Notes under the pieces: generated by a model | The model's database searches: none | What the model saw: the letters and a program-made list of their open reading frames with translations, nothing else | What the model was told of the DNA's origin: nothing | Translations under genes and position numbers: made by a program | Part shown: positions 10,151 through 14,336 of the stretch, one piece after another | Layout of the letters: each line of letters opens with the position of its first letter | How positions within the stretch are numbered: position 1 is the stretch's first letter | From: Patescibacteria group bacterium | Lineage (GTDB): Bacteria > Patescibacteriota > Microgenomatia > UBA1406 > GWC2-37-13 | NCBI GenBank assembly: GCA_023380935.1 | Contig: JAMCST010000015.1 | Span: 1 to 32,412, forward strand | Direction of reading: 5' to 3' | Length of the DNA stretch: 32,412 bases

Positions 10151-11412
10151 AAATGATCGGAAAATTGATAAATAGGAAAACTCTTTAGGGTCGCCTGGGC
10201 TTCTTGGAGACAGTAAAGTTCGCAGGAATGGAATTCCATCAGCGTTTCTCCCTTTCTGACATAATCGCCGATCTTCTTTTTTAACAGAATGCCACCGTAT
10301 TTGTCTTTCGGAGCACCGAGAATCTTGGCTACCGCATTAAGATTATAGTTATTGATTTTAATGACCTGGCCGCCGTGTTGTGACATGATTTCCCTGACTT
10401 TGCCGCGGTTGGGGAAACGGGCCAGTTCAATTTGGCCGTCGCCGCCCTGGGCACGGACGATTTCGCGAAATTTGCGCAAGGCCAGCCCCTCGACCAAGAT
10501 CCTTTTTGCCTCGGCCAAACCGTCTTTTTTATGTCCAGAGTCAGCGTAGCACAGATCGAGCAGTTTACCGGCCAACCGCAACGCCTTTTCCTCCAACGCC
10601 GGCGGCCGCCGGCGGCTTTGCTCGAGAACCAGCAGGACATCGCGCGCTTCAAGATACGGGCCGACGCCGTGGCCGGCCGGTTGACGGGTCGGATTAACAT
10701 CGGTGACCACCTTCATATGGAAATGTTTTCCCAGGGCGATGAATTTATCGGAGATCAGCTCGGCGTCACGGGGATGGCGGATTTTCATGGTCGGCCCGAC
10801 CGGAATATCGATAATCAGATGATTGGTGGAAGCGGCCACTTTTTTGGCCATGATAGACATGATAATTTTATCAAACGACTCAAACGCCAGTGGTTGTTCA
10901 ACCTTAATGATAACGTCGTCGGCCGGCGCCATACCCAGATGACCGTTCCAGGCAATGCAGCCGTTAACATTATTGACGATTTTTTCGATCCGGCTTGAGG
11001 TAAAGTCCACTTTGGCCAGGGTTTCCATCACGTCTGCGGTTCCGGCCGGCGTCGTGATGGCGCGCGAGGAAATCTTGGGGATTTTAAAACCGGCCGCCGC
11101 CACGATCGGAACCACGATCATCGTCGTCCGGGTGCCTGACACGCCGCCGGTTGAGTGTTTGTCGGCGACGATTCCGTCAAAGTGCAGTTTGGTGCCGGTT
11201 TCCACCATCGCCTTGGTAAATTGATACAACTCCTCGGGACGATAACCCTCCTTAAAGCTGGCCGCGACAAAATAAGTAGTGAGGACGCTGCTGAGTCGCT
11301 CGTGGGAAATTTCATCCATCAGGTTATAAATTTCCTGATAATTCAGGCGTTTGCCCAACAGCTTTTTTTGGATCGCCAGGACGGCGGCGCGATGGTGGTC
11401 GGGACCGTTCAT
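10147..11412 (-). CDS. deoA: AMP phosphorylase / thymidine phosphorylase family enzyme
   Basis: A nucleoside (or nucleotide) phosphorylase of the DeoA fold: it uses phosphate to split the base from the ribosyl moiety. The phosphate site is DKHSTGGVSGTRTT (84-97). The next block is SSRAITTPAGTAD (115-127). This is the form found in archaeal AMP phosphorylases (SSRAIT.PAGTAD) and not the HTGGTLDKLE form of thymidine phosphorylases. KKVAASTNHLIIDIPVG also fits the AMP enzyme, which yields ribose-1,5-bisphosphate for the AMP/RuBisCO route known in archaea and many CPR bacteria. At 421 residues it lacks the roughly 80-residue N-terminal oligomerisation domain of archaeal AMP phosphorylases, so the substrate remains open. 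It sits between murJ and mltG with ATGA overlaps on both sides. Confidence 0.85.
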   Translation of the reverse strand: MNGPDHHRAAVLAIQKKLLGKRLNYQEIYNLMDEISHERLSSVLTTYFVAASFKEGYRPEELYQFTKAMVETGTKLHFDGIVADKHSTGGVSGTRTTMIVVPIVAAAGFKIPKISSRAITTPAGTADVMETLAKVDFTSSRIEKIVNNVNGCIAWNGHLGMAPADDVIIKVEQPLAFESFDKIIMSIMAKKVAASTNHLIIDIPVGPTMKIRHPRDAELISDKFIALGKHFHMKVVTDVNPTRQPAGHGVGPYLEARDVLLVLEQSRRRPPALEEKALRLAGKLLDLCYADSGHKKDGLAEAKRILVEGLALRKFREIVRAQGGDGQIELARFPNRGKVREIMSQHGGQVIKINNYNLNAVAKILGAPKDKYGGILLKKKIGDYVRKGETLMEFHSCELYCLQEAQATLKSFPIYQFSDHL

Positions 11413-13037
11413 TGTGTGCCAACGGTAACTTCTATGATTTTTTTCTGATACTGTTTGGCTTTAATGATTAATCTGCCAATCAGATAGATTTGCTTAACGT
11501 TGAGAAACCAACTGATTAATAAATATAAACCAAGATAAAAGGCGCCGCTGATCAAAAGAATTAAGAATACGTTGATCGTGCGCGCCGTATCAAAGATCAA
11601 CTGATCGAGTATTTTGATCAGGTAATGACTGAAGAAGGCGGCGATCATGGCGGCCGCGGCGATTTTTCCGGTCGACACCGCCAAAAGTCTCCAGGAAAAC
11701 CCCTTTAGTCTCCGATCAAGCACAATAAACATAAGGCAGACGTTGACGATGATCGAAATGGAAAATGACAGCGCCAGCGACCAGACGGGCAGTTTCAGTA
11801 TCAGGATGCTTGTCAGGCTGATGGCAATGTTAATCAATACGCTGATGAAACTGATAATGAACGGCGTGCGGCTGTCAAGCAGAGCATAGTAACAGCGGGT
11901 AAGAAAGTAATAGCTCGAGTGGAGCGGAATCGAAAGGGAAAAGAACGACAGGGTAATGGCCGTTTCTACCGTGGCATCCCAATCGAATTTTTGCGCTCCG
12001 AAAAACAGTCTGACGGTGGGTGTGCGGGCAAAAATAAGGAAAAAGGCAATGGGAATGGTGAAAAAAAACAGGTTAAGGAGTGATTCGCTGATGATCAACT
12101 TCAATCCTTCCGGTTTTTTTTCCCGATGAATCTCGGAAAGATACGGTAAAGAGGCCTGTCCGAAAGCCACCCCGATCACCGAGACCGGCAGCAGCTGCAG
12201 GTGTTGGGCAAGATAGAAGATGGTATAGGAACCCGAACCCAAGATGGTGGTGAGGGAAAGGTCAATGGTGGCATCGATCTGGCTGACCACCACCGTGAAA
12301 ATTCTCGGAATAACGATCCGGAAAAATTCCTTGGTCGCCGCGGAAATTTTAATCACGGGGAGGAAGTTGAAGTCCACCACAAAAAACAGTGGCACCTGGA
12401 CGCAAAAAAACAATAGCGCCCCGACCACCACGCCGACGATCGGAGCCAAAAGATAGAGCTGCTCGGCAAAAAGAATGGTAAAAACAATCACCGCCAGGTT
12501 GTAAAGAACCGGGGCGATGGCGCTGATAATGAAAATTTTGTTGGCCTGGGCGATGCCGGTAATGAAGTTTCCGATCATCAATAAAGGCAGTTGTCCGATG
12601 AGCAGTATCCTTGAGTAGAAAATAACCTGTTCGTTTTGCGCCGGGCTGAACCCCGGCGTGATCAATCTGACGATCTCCGGCATCAACAGCACCAACGCAC
12701 CGACAAAAAACACCAGACACAATATAATGAGGTTAAAAATGGAGGAAATGTTGTCCTCGAGCTCTTGGCGGTTCTTCCGATATTTAATAAAGATAGGAAT
12801 CAATGTGGTGGTGAGGGCGCCGGTGATCAGTATTTCGAAGATCAGGTCGGGGATGCGGAATGAAGCAAAAAAAACATCGAGCTCTTCCTTGGTAAAGTAA
12901 CCGGTGAGAATACGATAACGCCAGAAACCGAAAATTCGGGAAACGACAATCATGGCCGAAAGGATAAGGGTCGACGAGAACATCCCTCCTTGCTGGGCAA
13001 ACAACAGCCGCTTGGTACGTTTAATCAGATATTCCAT
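11409..13037 (-). CDS. murJ: Lipid II flippase MurJ
   Basis: A MOP-superfamily membrane protein that moves lipid II from the cytoplasmic to the outer membrane leaflet. It has 542 residues, most of which form about 13-14 membrane helices. The N-terminal block LILSAMIVVSRIFGFWRYRIL matches the MurJ/MviN pattern of S...G..R, and FASFRIPDLIFEILITGALTTTLIPIF (58-84) matches its conserved second block. FGQASLPYLSEI and the later RCYYALLDSRTP are also typical. Its ATG is 58 bases from the mraZ ATG on the opposite strand, so the two promoters share a short divergent region. It leads the murJ-deoA-mltG unit. I could not identify a convincing promoter for it. Confidence 0.95.
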   Translation of the reverse strand: MEYLIKRTKRLLFAQQGGMFSSTLILSAMIVVSRIFGFWRYRILTGYFTKEELDVFFASFRIPDLIFEILITGALTTTLIPIFIKYRKNRQELEDNISSIFNLIILCLVFFVGALVLLMPEIVRLITPGFSPAQNEQVIFYSRILLIGQLPLLMIGNFITGIAQANKIFIISAIAPVLYNLAVIVFTILFAEQLYLLAPIVGVVVGALLFFCVQVPLFFVVDFNFLPVIKISAATKEFFRIVIPRIFTVVVSQIDATIDLSLTTILGSGSYTIFYLAQHLQLLPVSVIGVAFGQASLPYLSEIHREKKPEGLKLIISESLLNLFFFTIPIAFFLIFARTPTVRLFFGAQKFDWDATVETAITLSFFSLSIPLHSSYYFLTRCYYALLDSRTPFIISFISVLINIAISLTSILILKLPVWSLALSFSISIIVNVCLMFIVLDRRLKGFSWRLLAVSTGKIAAAAMIAAFFSHYLIKILDQLIFDTARTINVFLILLISGAFYLGLYLLISWFLNVKQIYLIGRLIIKAKQYQKKIIEVTVGTQ

Positions 13038-13058
13038 AAATAGTGCCTCACATTACGC

Positions 13059-13087
13059 TTGACATTTGTCCGATAATGGCGTTAAAT
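13059..13087 (+). promoter_or_regulatory. Sigma70-type promoter of mraZ and the dcw cluster
   Basis: There is a perfect -35 TTGACA (13059-13064), a 17-base spacer and a -10 TTAAAT (13082-13087, 4 of 6 matches). The ATG at 13096 follows after 8 bases, so the mRNA should be leaderless. The -10 box overlaps the second of the 10-base-spaced MraZ boxes. This is the only clear promoter found before the 19 tightly packed dcw genes. Confidence 0.7.
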
Positions 13088-13119
13088 GGTTATATATGGT
13101 GTTTTATGGTGAATATTGG
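13076..13119 (+). promoter_or_regulatory. MraZ operator: five TGG boxes at 10-base spacing
   Basis: ATGG occurs at 13076, 13086, 13096 and 13106, and TTGG at 13116, each exactly 10 bases apart with unrelated 5-base spacers. The third copy is the mraZ start codon itself. MraZ in E. coli binds TGGGN repeats separated by 5 bases upstream of its own gene, giving the same 10-base period. A period of 10 is not a multiple of 3, so codon structure cannot produce it. The boxes cover the -10 region, the start codon and the first codons, consistent with autorepression. Confidence 0.8.
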
Positions 13120-13491
13120 GTGTCTTTTTCCGCTCCGGGACGGATCGTGTTGCCGAAAAAATTGCGCGAATTGCTGAAAGGCAACAGTTTTATTGTAACA
13201 AAAGGTTTTGACAATTGCTTGAACGGTTACGATCGCGACGACTGGGAACAACGGTCAAAGACGCTATTAAGCGTGTCGTTGCTGGAAAAAGAAAACTTGG
13301 ACAAGCGCCGGTTTTTGTTTGCTTCGGCGGTTTATCTGGACATTGATGACCAGGGCCGATTTGTCATTCCCCGCAATCTGCTGGCCTATTCACAGATCGG
13401 GAACAAGGCCTTAATCATCGGCGTCGGTGACCATTTTGAAATATGGAAACCAGAAAAATGGGAAAAATATCAAAAGGGTTTCAAGGAGTAA
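13096..13491 (+). CDS. mraZ: Transcriptional regulator MraZ
   Basis: A ring-forming DNA-binding protein of the AbrB/SpoVT fold that usually represses the dcw operon. It has 131 residues with two tandem swapped-hairpin repeats. The first contains PGRIVLPKKLREL (14-26) and the second DDQGRFVIPRNLL (84-96). The usual first-repeat D.KGR reads SAPGR here, a mild deviation. The start is the ATG at 13096, giving MVFYGEY, which matches the MF.GEY start of the family. An in-frame TTG at 13066 lies inside the promoter and is rejected. The operator overlaps its start. Its 3' end overlaps rsmH. Confidence 0.93.
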   Translation: MVFYGEYWVSFSAPGRIVLPKKLRELLKGNSFIVTKGFDNCLNGYDRDDWEQRSKTLLSVSLLEKENLDKRRFLFASAVYLDIDDQGRFVIPRNLLAYSQIGNKALIIGVGDHFEIWKPEKWEKYQKGFKE

Positions 13492-14336
13492 GACATACTC
13501 CGGTTCTTTTACAAACGGTGATGCGCGCTCTTAATGTTCGGCCAGGCGGAAAGTATATTGACGCGACCTTCGGGTCGGGTGGGTATGCCCGGGCCATGCT
13601 TGAACGGGGTGCCCAGGTGCTCGGAATTGATCGTGACCGTCGCCAGATCGAGGCGGCCGCCACCGACCTGAAAACAAACCCCGACCTGCGGTTGGTGGTG
13701 GGCAACTTTGCCGACATCGGTACCATCGCCCGGGCCAATCGTTATGCGCCGGCCGTTGGCGTCGTGTTTGACCTGGGTTTGTCAATGGAGCAAATCGGCG
13801 GATCGGGACGAGGTTTCTCTTATCGCCGATCGCAGGAGCGTTTGGACATGCGCCTTGATCCGGAGACCGGCTTCTCGGCCGCCGAGTTAATCAACCGGGC
13901 AACGGTCGAGGCGCTGTATCAAATTTTCGTAAAAAATTCCGAAGAGATCCGGTCCCGCGTCATTGCCCAGGCGATTGTCCAGGCCAGAAAAACCCGTCCG
14001 ATAATAACGGCAGGCGATCTGGTTATGGCGATTGAACGCGGGAGTGGTGTCAGGGACCAAAAAACCAGCGCAAGAATTTTCCAGGCGCTACGCATCGCGG
14101 TCAATAACGAATTTGAAAATTTGCCCCGCGGTCTGATCGGCGCCTATGAGTTACTGTGCGACCGGGGACGGATTGTCGTGGTAACGTTCCATTCGCTTGA
14201 AGACCGGCTGGTTAAACGGCTGATCAGGCAGCGGGGTTGGAGCAAGATCGAAGCGGCCAGACCACCTGACAATCGGAAAAACCGTTATGAGCGTTCGGCC
14301 ACCGTGCGTATTATCGAAAAACATGAAAAAAAATAA
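13458..14336 (+). CDS. rsmH: 16S rRNA (cytosine-1402-N4)-methyltransferase
   Basis: This enzyme methylates N4 of C1402 in 16S rRNA with S-adenosylmethionine and is a standard second gene of dcw clusters. From the ATG at 13458 it has 292 residues. Motifs are HTPVLL (13-18), the SAM loop DATFGSGG (35-42), then DLGLSMEQI, RGFSYRRSQERLDMRLDP and FHSLEDRLVKR, all diagnostic of RsmH. The start is uncertain: an ATG at 13443 is in frame and would add five residues. The 13458 start places HTPVLL nearer the family's usual distance from the N-terminus. Either start lies inside mraZ (34 or 49 bases of overlap). The AAGGAG at 13482-13487 lies downstream of both and cannot serve them. Confidence 0.93.
   Translation: MGKISKGFQGVRHTPVLLQTVMRALNVRPGGKYIDATFGSGGYARAMLERGAQVLGIDRDRRQIEAAATDLKTNPDLRLVVGNFADIGTIARANRYAPAVGVVFDLGLSMEQIGGSGRGFSYRRSQERLDMRLDPETGFSAAELINRATVEALYQIFVKNSEEIRSRVIAQAIVQARKTRPIITAGDLVMAIERGSGVRDQKTSARIFQALRIAVNNEFENLPRGLIGAYELLCDRGRIVVVTFHSLEDRLVKRLIRQRGWSKIEAARPPDNRKNRYERSATVRIIEKHEKK

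Follow-up and report, generated by a model that had tools for sequence, protein, structure and literature searches.

How could the start codon of a regulatory gene also be one of the sites to which its product binds? This question is raised by the beginning of mraZ in the window analysed here, a 32,412-nucleotide stretch from a small genome (0.94 Mb) whose nearest named relatives are Candidatus Roizmanbacteria (Microgenomatia, Patescibacteria). MraZ represses the dcw (division and cell wall) cluster in E. coli and M. genitalium (PMC8475190). We propose, with a probability of roughly 0.78, that the TGG repeats at this locus would form the MraZ operator of the dcw cluster, with four boxes fused with a leaderless start, and that MraZ would repress its own operon through them. 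Our literature search found no paper describing a MraZ operator fused with a start codon.

The mraZ locus and its box array

The dcw cluster of the window runs from mraZ, which starts at 13096, through rsmH and the fts/mur genes to ftsZ, with murJ divergent (gene names other than mraZ, rsmH and murJ were taken from ORF translations). The mraZ coding sequence (13096-13491, + strand) specifies 131 residues, one above the usual length, with the N-terminus MVFYGEY. Homology firmly supports the view of the initial annotation that this gene encodes a bona fide MraZ: the product matches Pfam MraZ PF02381 (4.4e-29) in two stretches and NCBIfam TIGR00242 (103.5 bits, above the cutoff of 98.35), and it is homologous to solved MraZ structures (1n0e, 9qlr and others). 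Moreover, Arg16 is present without exception in 20 aligned MraZ proteins; its E. coli equivalent, Arg15, is reportedly the DNA-binding arginine. The second gene of the cluster, rsmH (mraW; 13443-14336, + strand; Pfam Methyltransf_5, 4e-68), overlaps the 3' end of mraZ, and its real start may lie slightly further in.

Counted from the A of the mraZ ATG, ATGG occurs on the + strand at 13076-13079 (box 1, TGG at -19, inside the -35/-10 spacer), 13086-13089 (box 2, TGG at -9, covering the last bases of the -10 element), 13096-13099 (box 3, TGG at +2, the start codon and the first base of codon 2) and 13106-13109 (box 4, TGG at +12, codons 4-5). A fifth repeat, TTGG at 13116-13119 (+ strand), includes Trp codon 8. 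All five are present as originally described, and TGG recurs five times in exact 10-base steps between 13077 and 13119. This is the only non-homopolymer 3-mer array with five copies at a period of 7-14 bases in the whole window, and 60 dinucleotide shuffles produced no five-copy 3-mer array. ATGG at period 10 is likewise the only 4-mer array with four copies at these periods in the window. When two mismatches are allowed, the four-box pattern matches five times, compared with 0.28 expected per window, and four of the five matches are the mraZ array in overlapping registers. Within the source genome sequence, both the four-box and the three-box patterns are confined to the mraZ array.

The E. 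coli mraZp operator, with three TGGGN boxes, is also a set of TGG-core direct repeats at a MraZ-autoregulated dcw promoter, and it shares the 10-base period, as had been pointed out from the start (TGGG at -43, -33 and -23, counted from the E. coli mraZ ATG). However, all the E. coli boxes precede the start codon and are separated from it by additional leader, whereas the boxes here begin in the promoter spacer, take in the start codon and reach codon 5. The base preceding TGG also differs, being A or T here and mostly G in E. coli. Mollicute MraZ binds AAAGTG[T/G] repeats (PMC8475190), which resemble the present array in being direct repeats in the mraZ promoter region and, in M. genitalium, a single site in the genome. 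Their core differs from the WAATGGTG found here, and the parts of PMC8475190 that deal with the Mollicute operator do not describe it as part of a coding sequence.

Conservation of the boxes, the promoter and the predicted leaderless start

We compared 75 distinct mraZ starts from "Ca. Roizmanbacteria" and allies, 61 of them with identical geometry. The TGG is exact in 90% of these 61 loci at -19, 85% at -9, 79% at +2 and 87% at +12, and at least three of the four core TGG are exact at 63 of the 75 loci, although the GG of box 2 has been lost in some genomes. The strict pattern of promoter, array and start occurs in 46 of 83 genomes of the order. The four-box pattern is found in 27 of 57 related genomes, 23 times at mraZ, whereas a reversed-pattern control matches in 3 of the 57. 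Hardly any close relative with an mraZ gene lacks the periodic TGG, so that the observation withstands the refutation test which the initial annotation had set. As that annotation held, one of the boxes coincides with the start codon: box 3 is conserved with the others. Its five-box operator survives as four, which relatives keep; TGG at +22 is found at 2 of the 75 loci, the window counted in, and we reject the fifth box as a part of the operator. The repeat at 13116 is nearly peculiar to the source genome and appears to be a local accident on top of the operator. An extra TGG at -29 is present at 20% of the 61 loci. On the alignment, the conserved operator is four boxes reaching from the -35/-10 spacer to codon 5, and MraZ is predicted to bind them.

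We also considered a wider MraZ regulon and rejected it, as outside mraZ the three-box pattern turns up no more often than the reversed control. In a very large collection of viral contigs, the promoter-array pattern gave 24 matches, which we treat as chance.

The promoter is held in fixed register with the boxes. A -35 element, TTGACA (13059-13064, + strand; -37 to -32 from the ATG), is followed after a 17-base spacer by a predicted -10 element, TTAAAT (13082-13087, + strand), that shares bases with box 2. TTGAC is present in all 61 same-geometry loci, with 0 changes on the tree; among all 75 loci it stands at -37 in 61 and at -38 in 10 others. AAT at -11 to -9 is found in 60-61 of the 61 loci, and AT at -2,-1 in 64 of the 75. 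A consensus promoter scan at mraZ found nothing, because position 2 of the -10 hexamer is T instead of A. This weak hexamer counts against reading the stretch as promoter and operator.

How would such a message be translated? A Shine-Dalgarno (SD)-like motif is present at 4 of the 75 mraZ loci and absent from the other 71, and 24 of the 26 genes in the window have none in the 20 bases before the start. The lineage thus seems to depend on initiation that is SD-free or leaderless, and since SD-free initiation is normal in the window, a leaderless mraZ message is plausible. With TTGACA at -37 and no Shine-Dalgarno sequence, we predict an mRNA without a leader. The geometry of the -35 and -10 elements would place the transcription start at 13094-13096 (+ strand), at the ATG or within two bases of it, so the leaderless start of the initial annotation is well supported as a prediction. 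An in-frame TTG at 13066 is disfavoured as the mraZ start, because any upstream in-frame start occurs at just 15 of the 75 loci while the ATG of box 3 is conserved.

Constraint on the DNA and a probable origin of the start-codon box

Because boxes 3-5 lie inside the coding sequence, their conservation had to be tested separately, against codon usage and against leadered relatives. It is doubtful, at about one chance in eight in our judgement, that only boxes 1 and 2 (at times with -29) form the operator while boxes 3 and 4, in the coding sequence, arise as by-products of the ATG and the conserved FxGEY protein motif. Protein needs do fix the ATG and Gly5, box 3 is ATGT or ATGC in place of ATGG in one subgroup, and the 10-base step to box 4 is broken in L106 and L109, where the spacing is 13 bases. 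However, codon 5 is GGT at 50 of 60 loci, compared with 177 of 563 Gly codons (31%) elsewhere in the gene (Fisher 5e-15, with relatedness ignored), and the preference for GGT over GGA fits a TGGTG box and not base composition. Additionally, the third base of codon 4 is mostly T even though the residue may be F, Y, V, I, L or S, and the G at +4 has changed few times on the tree. Third positions of codons 3-7 show 0-7 changes, as opposed to 19-32 in codons 8-14, a synonymous constraint for which leaderless translation could partly account.

Upstream of the gene, the TGG columns of box 1 show 4, 2 and 1 changes on the tree of 60 loci, compared with 18-27 in columns -31 to -23, and the GG columns of box 2 show 3 and 4. 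Judged by these counts, the conservation of box 1 cannot be explained by either promoter or protein. The substitution pattern across the array indicates that the boxes are constrained as DNA.

Leadered relatives bear on the same issue. In sister orders, TTGAC is followed after 18-19 bases by the first TGG and then by 10-base steps before mraZ at 27 of 39 loci, and the mraZ start codon lies 16-171 bases past box 3. The leadered operators of Daviesbacteria, Gottesmanbacteria and Shapirobacteria share this spacing from the -35 element and this box period with the operator described here, but their boxes are non-coding, with the leader following box 3. The register of box 3 in sister orders is mostly TGG and in many cases ATGG, though translation does not start at it (e.g. 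L114, TAGATGGTGAAA), which again argues against the by-product explanation. The MraZ N-terminus is mostly M-F-x-G in leadered loci and M-(V/A/F/L)-F-x-G in this order, and the additional codon sets box 4 exactly 10 bases on, a further point against that explanation. On the MraZ tree, a single branch (support 0.999, one label change) parts all leaderless from all leadered loci.

The simplest account of these patterns is that the leader was lost one time, turning box 3 into the start codon. Operator and promoter would have travelled as a single module across the class; with the loss of the leader in this order, boxes 3 and 4 would have become the start codon and codons 4-5, and MraZ would have gained one N-terminal residue. 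We lean slightly towards a more specific history, in which the start codon was recruited from box 3 (ATGG) upon a single leader loss at the base of the order and the flank of the box became codon 2. Thereafter, the operator would have dictated the first codons, and with them how the repressor protein that recognizes it begins, and a single short stretch would act as promoter, operator and coding sequence at once.

Arrays with as many as five boxes finish near the mraZ start in other parts of the phylum, and the patescibacterial locus L118 carries five of them, 10 bases apart, ahead of the gene. A long array in this position is therefore not unique, and exceeding the three boxes of E. coli, which the initial annotation had remarked on, is no distinction of this locus. 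What is special here is that the promoter keeps register with boxes lying on the start codon and codons 4-5.

Two further features of relatives were observed. In other Patescibacteria (L175-L177), five boxes follow one another at exactly 10 bases, and 12-13 bases separate the final TGG from the mraZ start. L112, L114, L121, L137 and similar Daviesbacteria-type loci carry a conserved palindrome-like sequence, TTCTGCCCAGAA, in the mraZ 5' leader, at most 45 bases from the start.

Proposed autorepression and its alternatives

How would the array act? It comprises four direct repeats, with a consensus of about WAATGGTG, that start in the -35/-10 spacer, cross the downstream edge of the -10 element and the start codon, and reach codon 5. 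Because the period is 10, the boxes lie on one face of the helix, where the identical subunits of a MraZ oligomer could sit side by side on in-phase boxes, from about -22 to +16. MraZ would thereby keep RNA polymerase off the -10 region and the start site and repress its own operon. Occlusion of RNA polymerase at the initiation site, suggested by the initial annotation, is the likeliest effect because the boxes cover both the -10 element and the start site, and the array is most likely an operator for steric autorepression of the dcw cluster. We infer autorepression here by analogy with E. coli and M. genitalium.

An alternative that we consider unlikely keeps the same operator but has MraZ activate, or act mainly on the divergent murJ promoter. 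Activation is conceivable because MraZ overexpression raised FtsZ in M. gallisepticum (PMC8475190). murJ (11409-13037, - strand; Pfam MurJ, 9.4e-66) starts only 58 bases from mraZ (13038-13095), which obliges the two promoters to share this stretch and places that of murJ on or directly beside the operator. It lies immediately upstream of mraZ and divergent in most family relatives, with a gap of about 50-60 bases in many of them. Given this distance and the retained neighbourhood, MraZ may also affect murJ. However, boxes over the mraZ -10 element and start site occupy a classic repressing position, the module stays over the mraZ promoter in the leadered orders, and MraZ is a repressor in both E. 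coli and M. genitalium (PMC8475190). We therefore favor repression of mraZ itself. Finally, a near-SD-free lineage and synonymous conservation across codons 3-7 might suggest that periodic TGG is a leaderless translation signal or early-codon mRNA composition with no protein site, but this is highly improbable, as the predicted transcript begins downstream of boxes 1 and 2, leadered relatives share the boxes, and TGG-type arrays are absent from the other genes of the window.

In TrpR-type autorepressors, the operator overlaps the promoter and start of the repressor's own gene. In both systems, the product of the gene would sterically block RNA polymerase; here, however, the operator is a direct-repeat array for an oligomeric regulator, and the start codon is one of the repeats. 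The window also contains a TrpR-like gene (192-509, - strand; TIGR01321 match below cutoff), preceded by TTGACA and then the palindrome GTACTAGTATACTAGTAT, with the ATG a few bases later. The same arrangement occurs in G018 and G008. From this layout, the gene is probably a second leaderless autorepressor with its operator packed between the -35 element and the start.

Why does this locus matter? As read from its sequence, the stretch at the mraZ start would serve at once as promoter, control switch and protein code, a clean case of three simultaneous constraints on one piece of DNA. It extends a widespread regulator of cell division to Patescibacteria, a group whose gene regulation is little known, and the predicted operator is open to testing in vitro. 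Together, the leadered sister orders and this leaderless order offer a natural series for the fusion of operator and coding sequence through leader loss, one that also bears on whether oligomeric MraZ needs four in-phase boxes.
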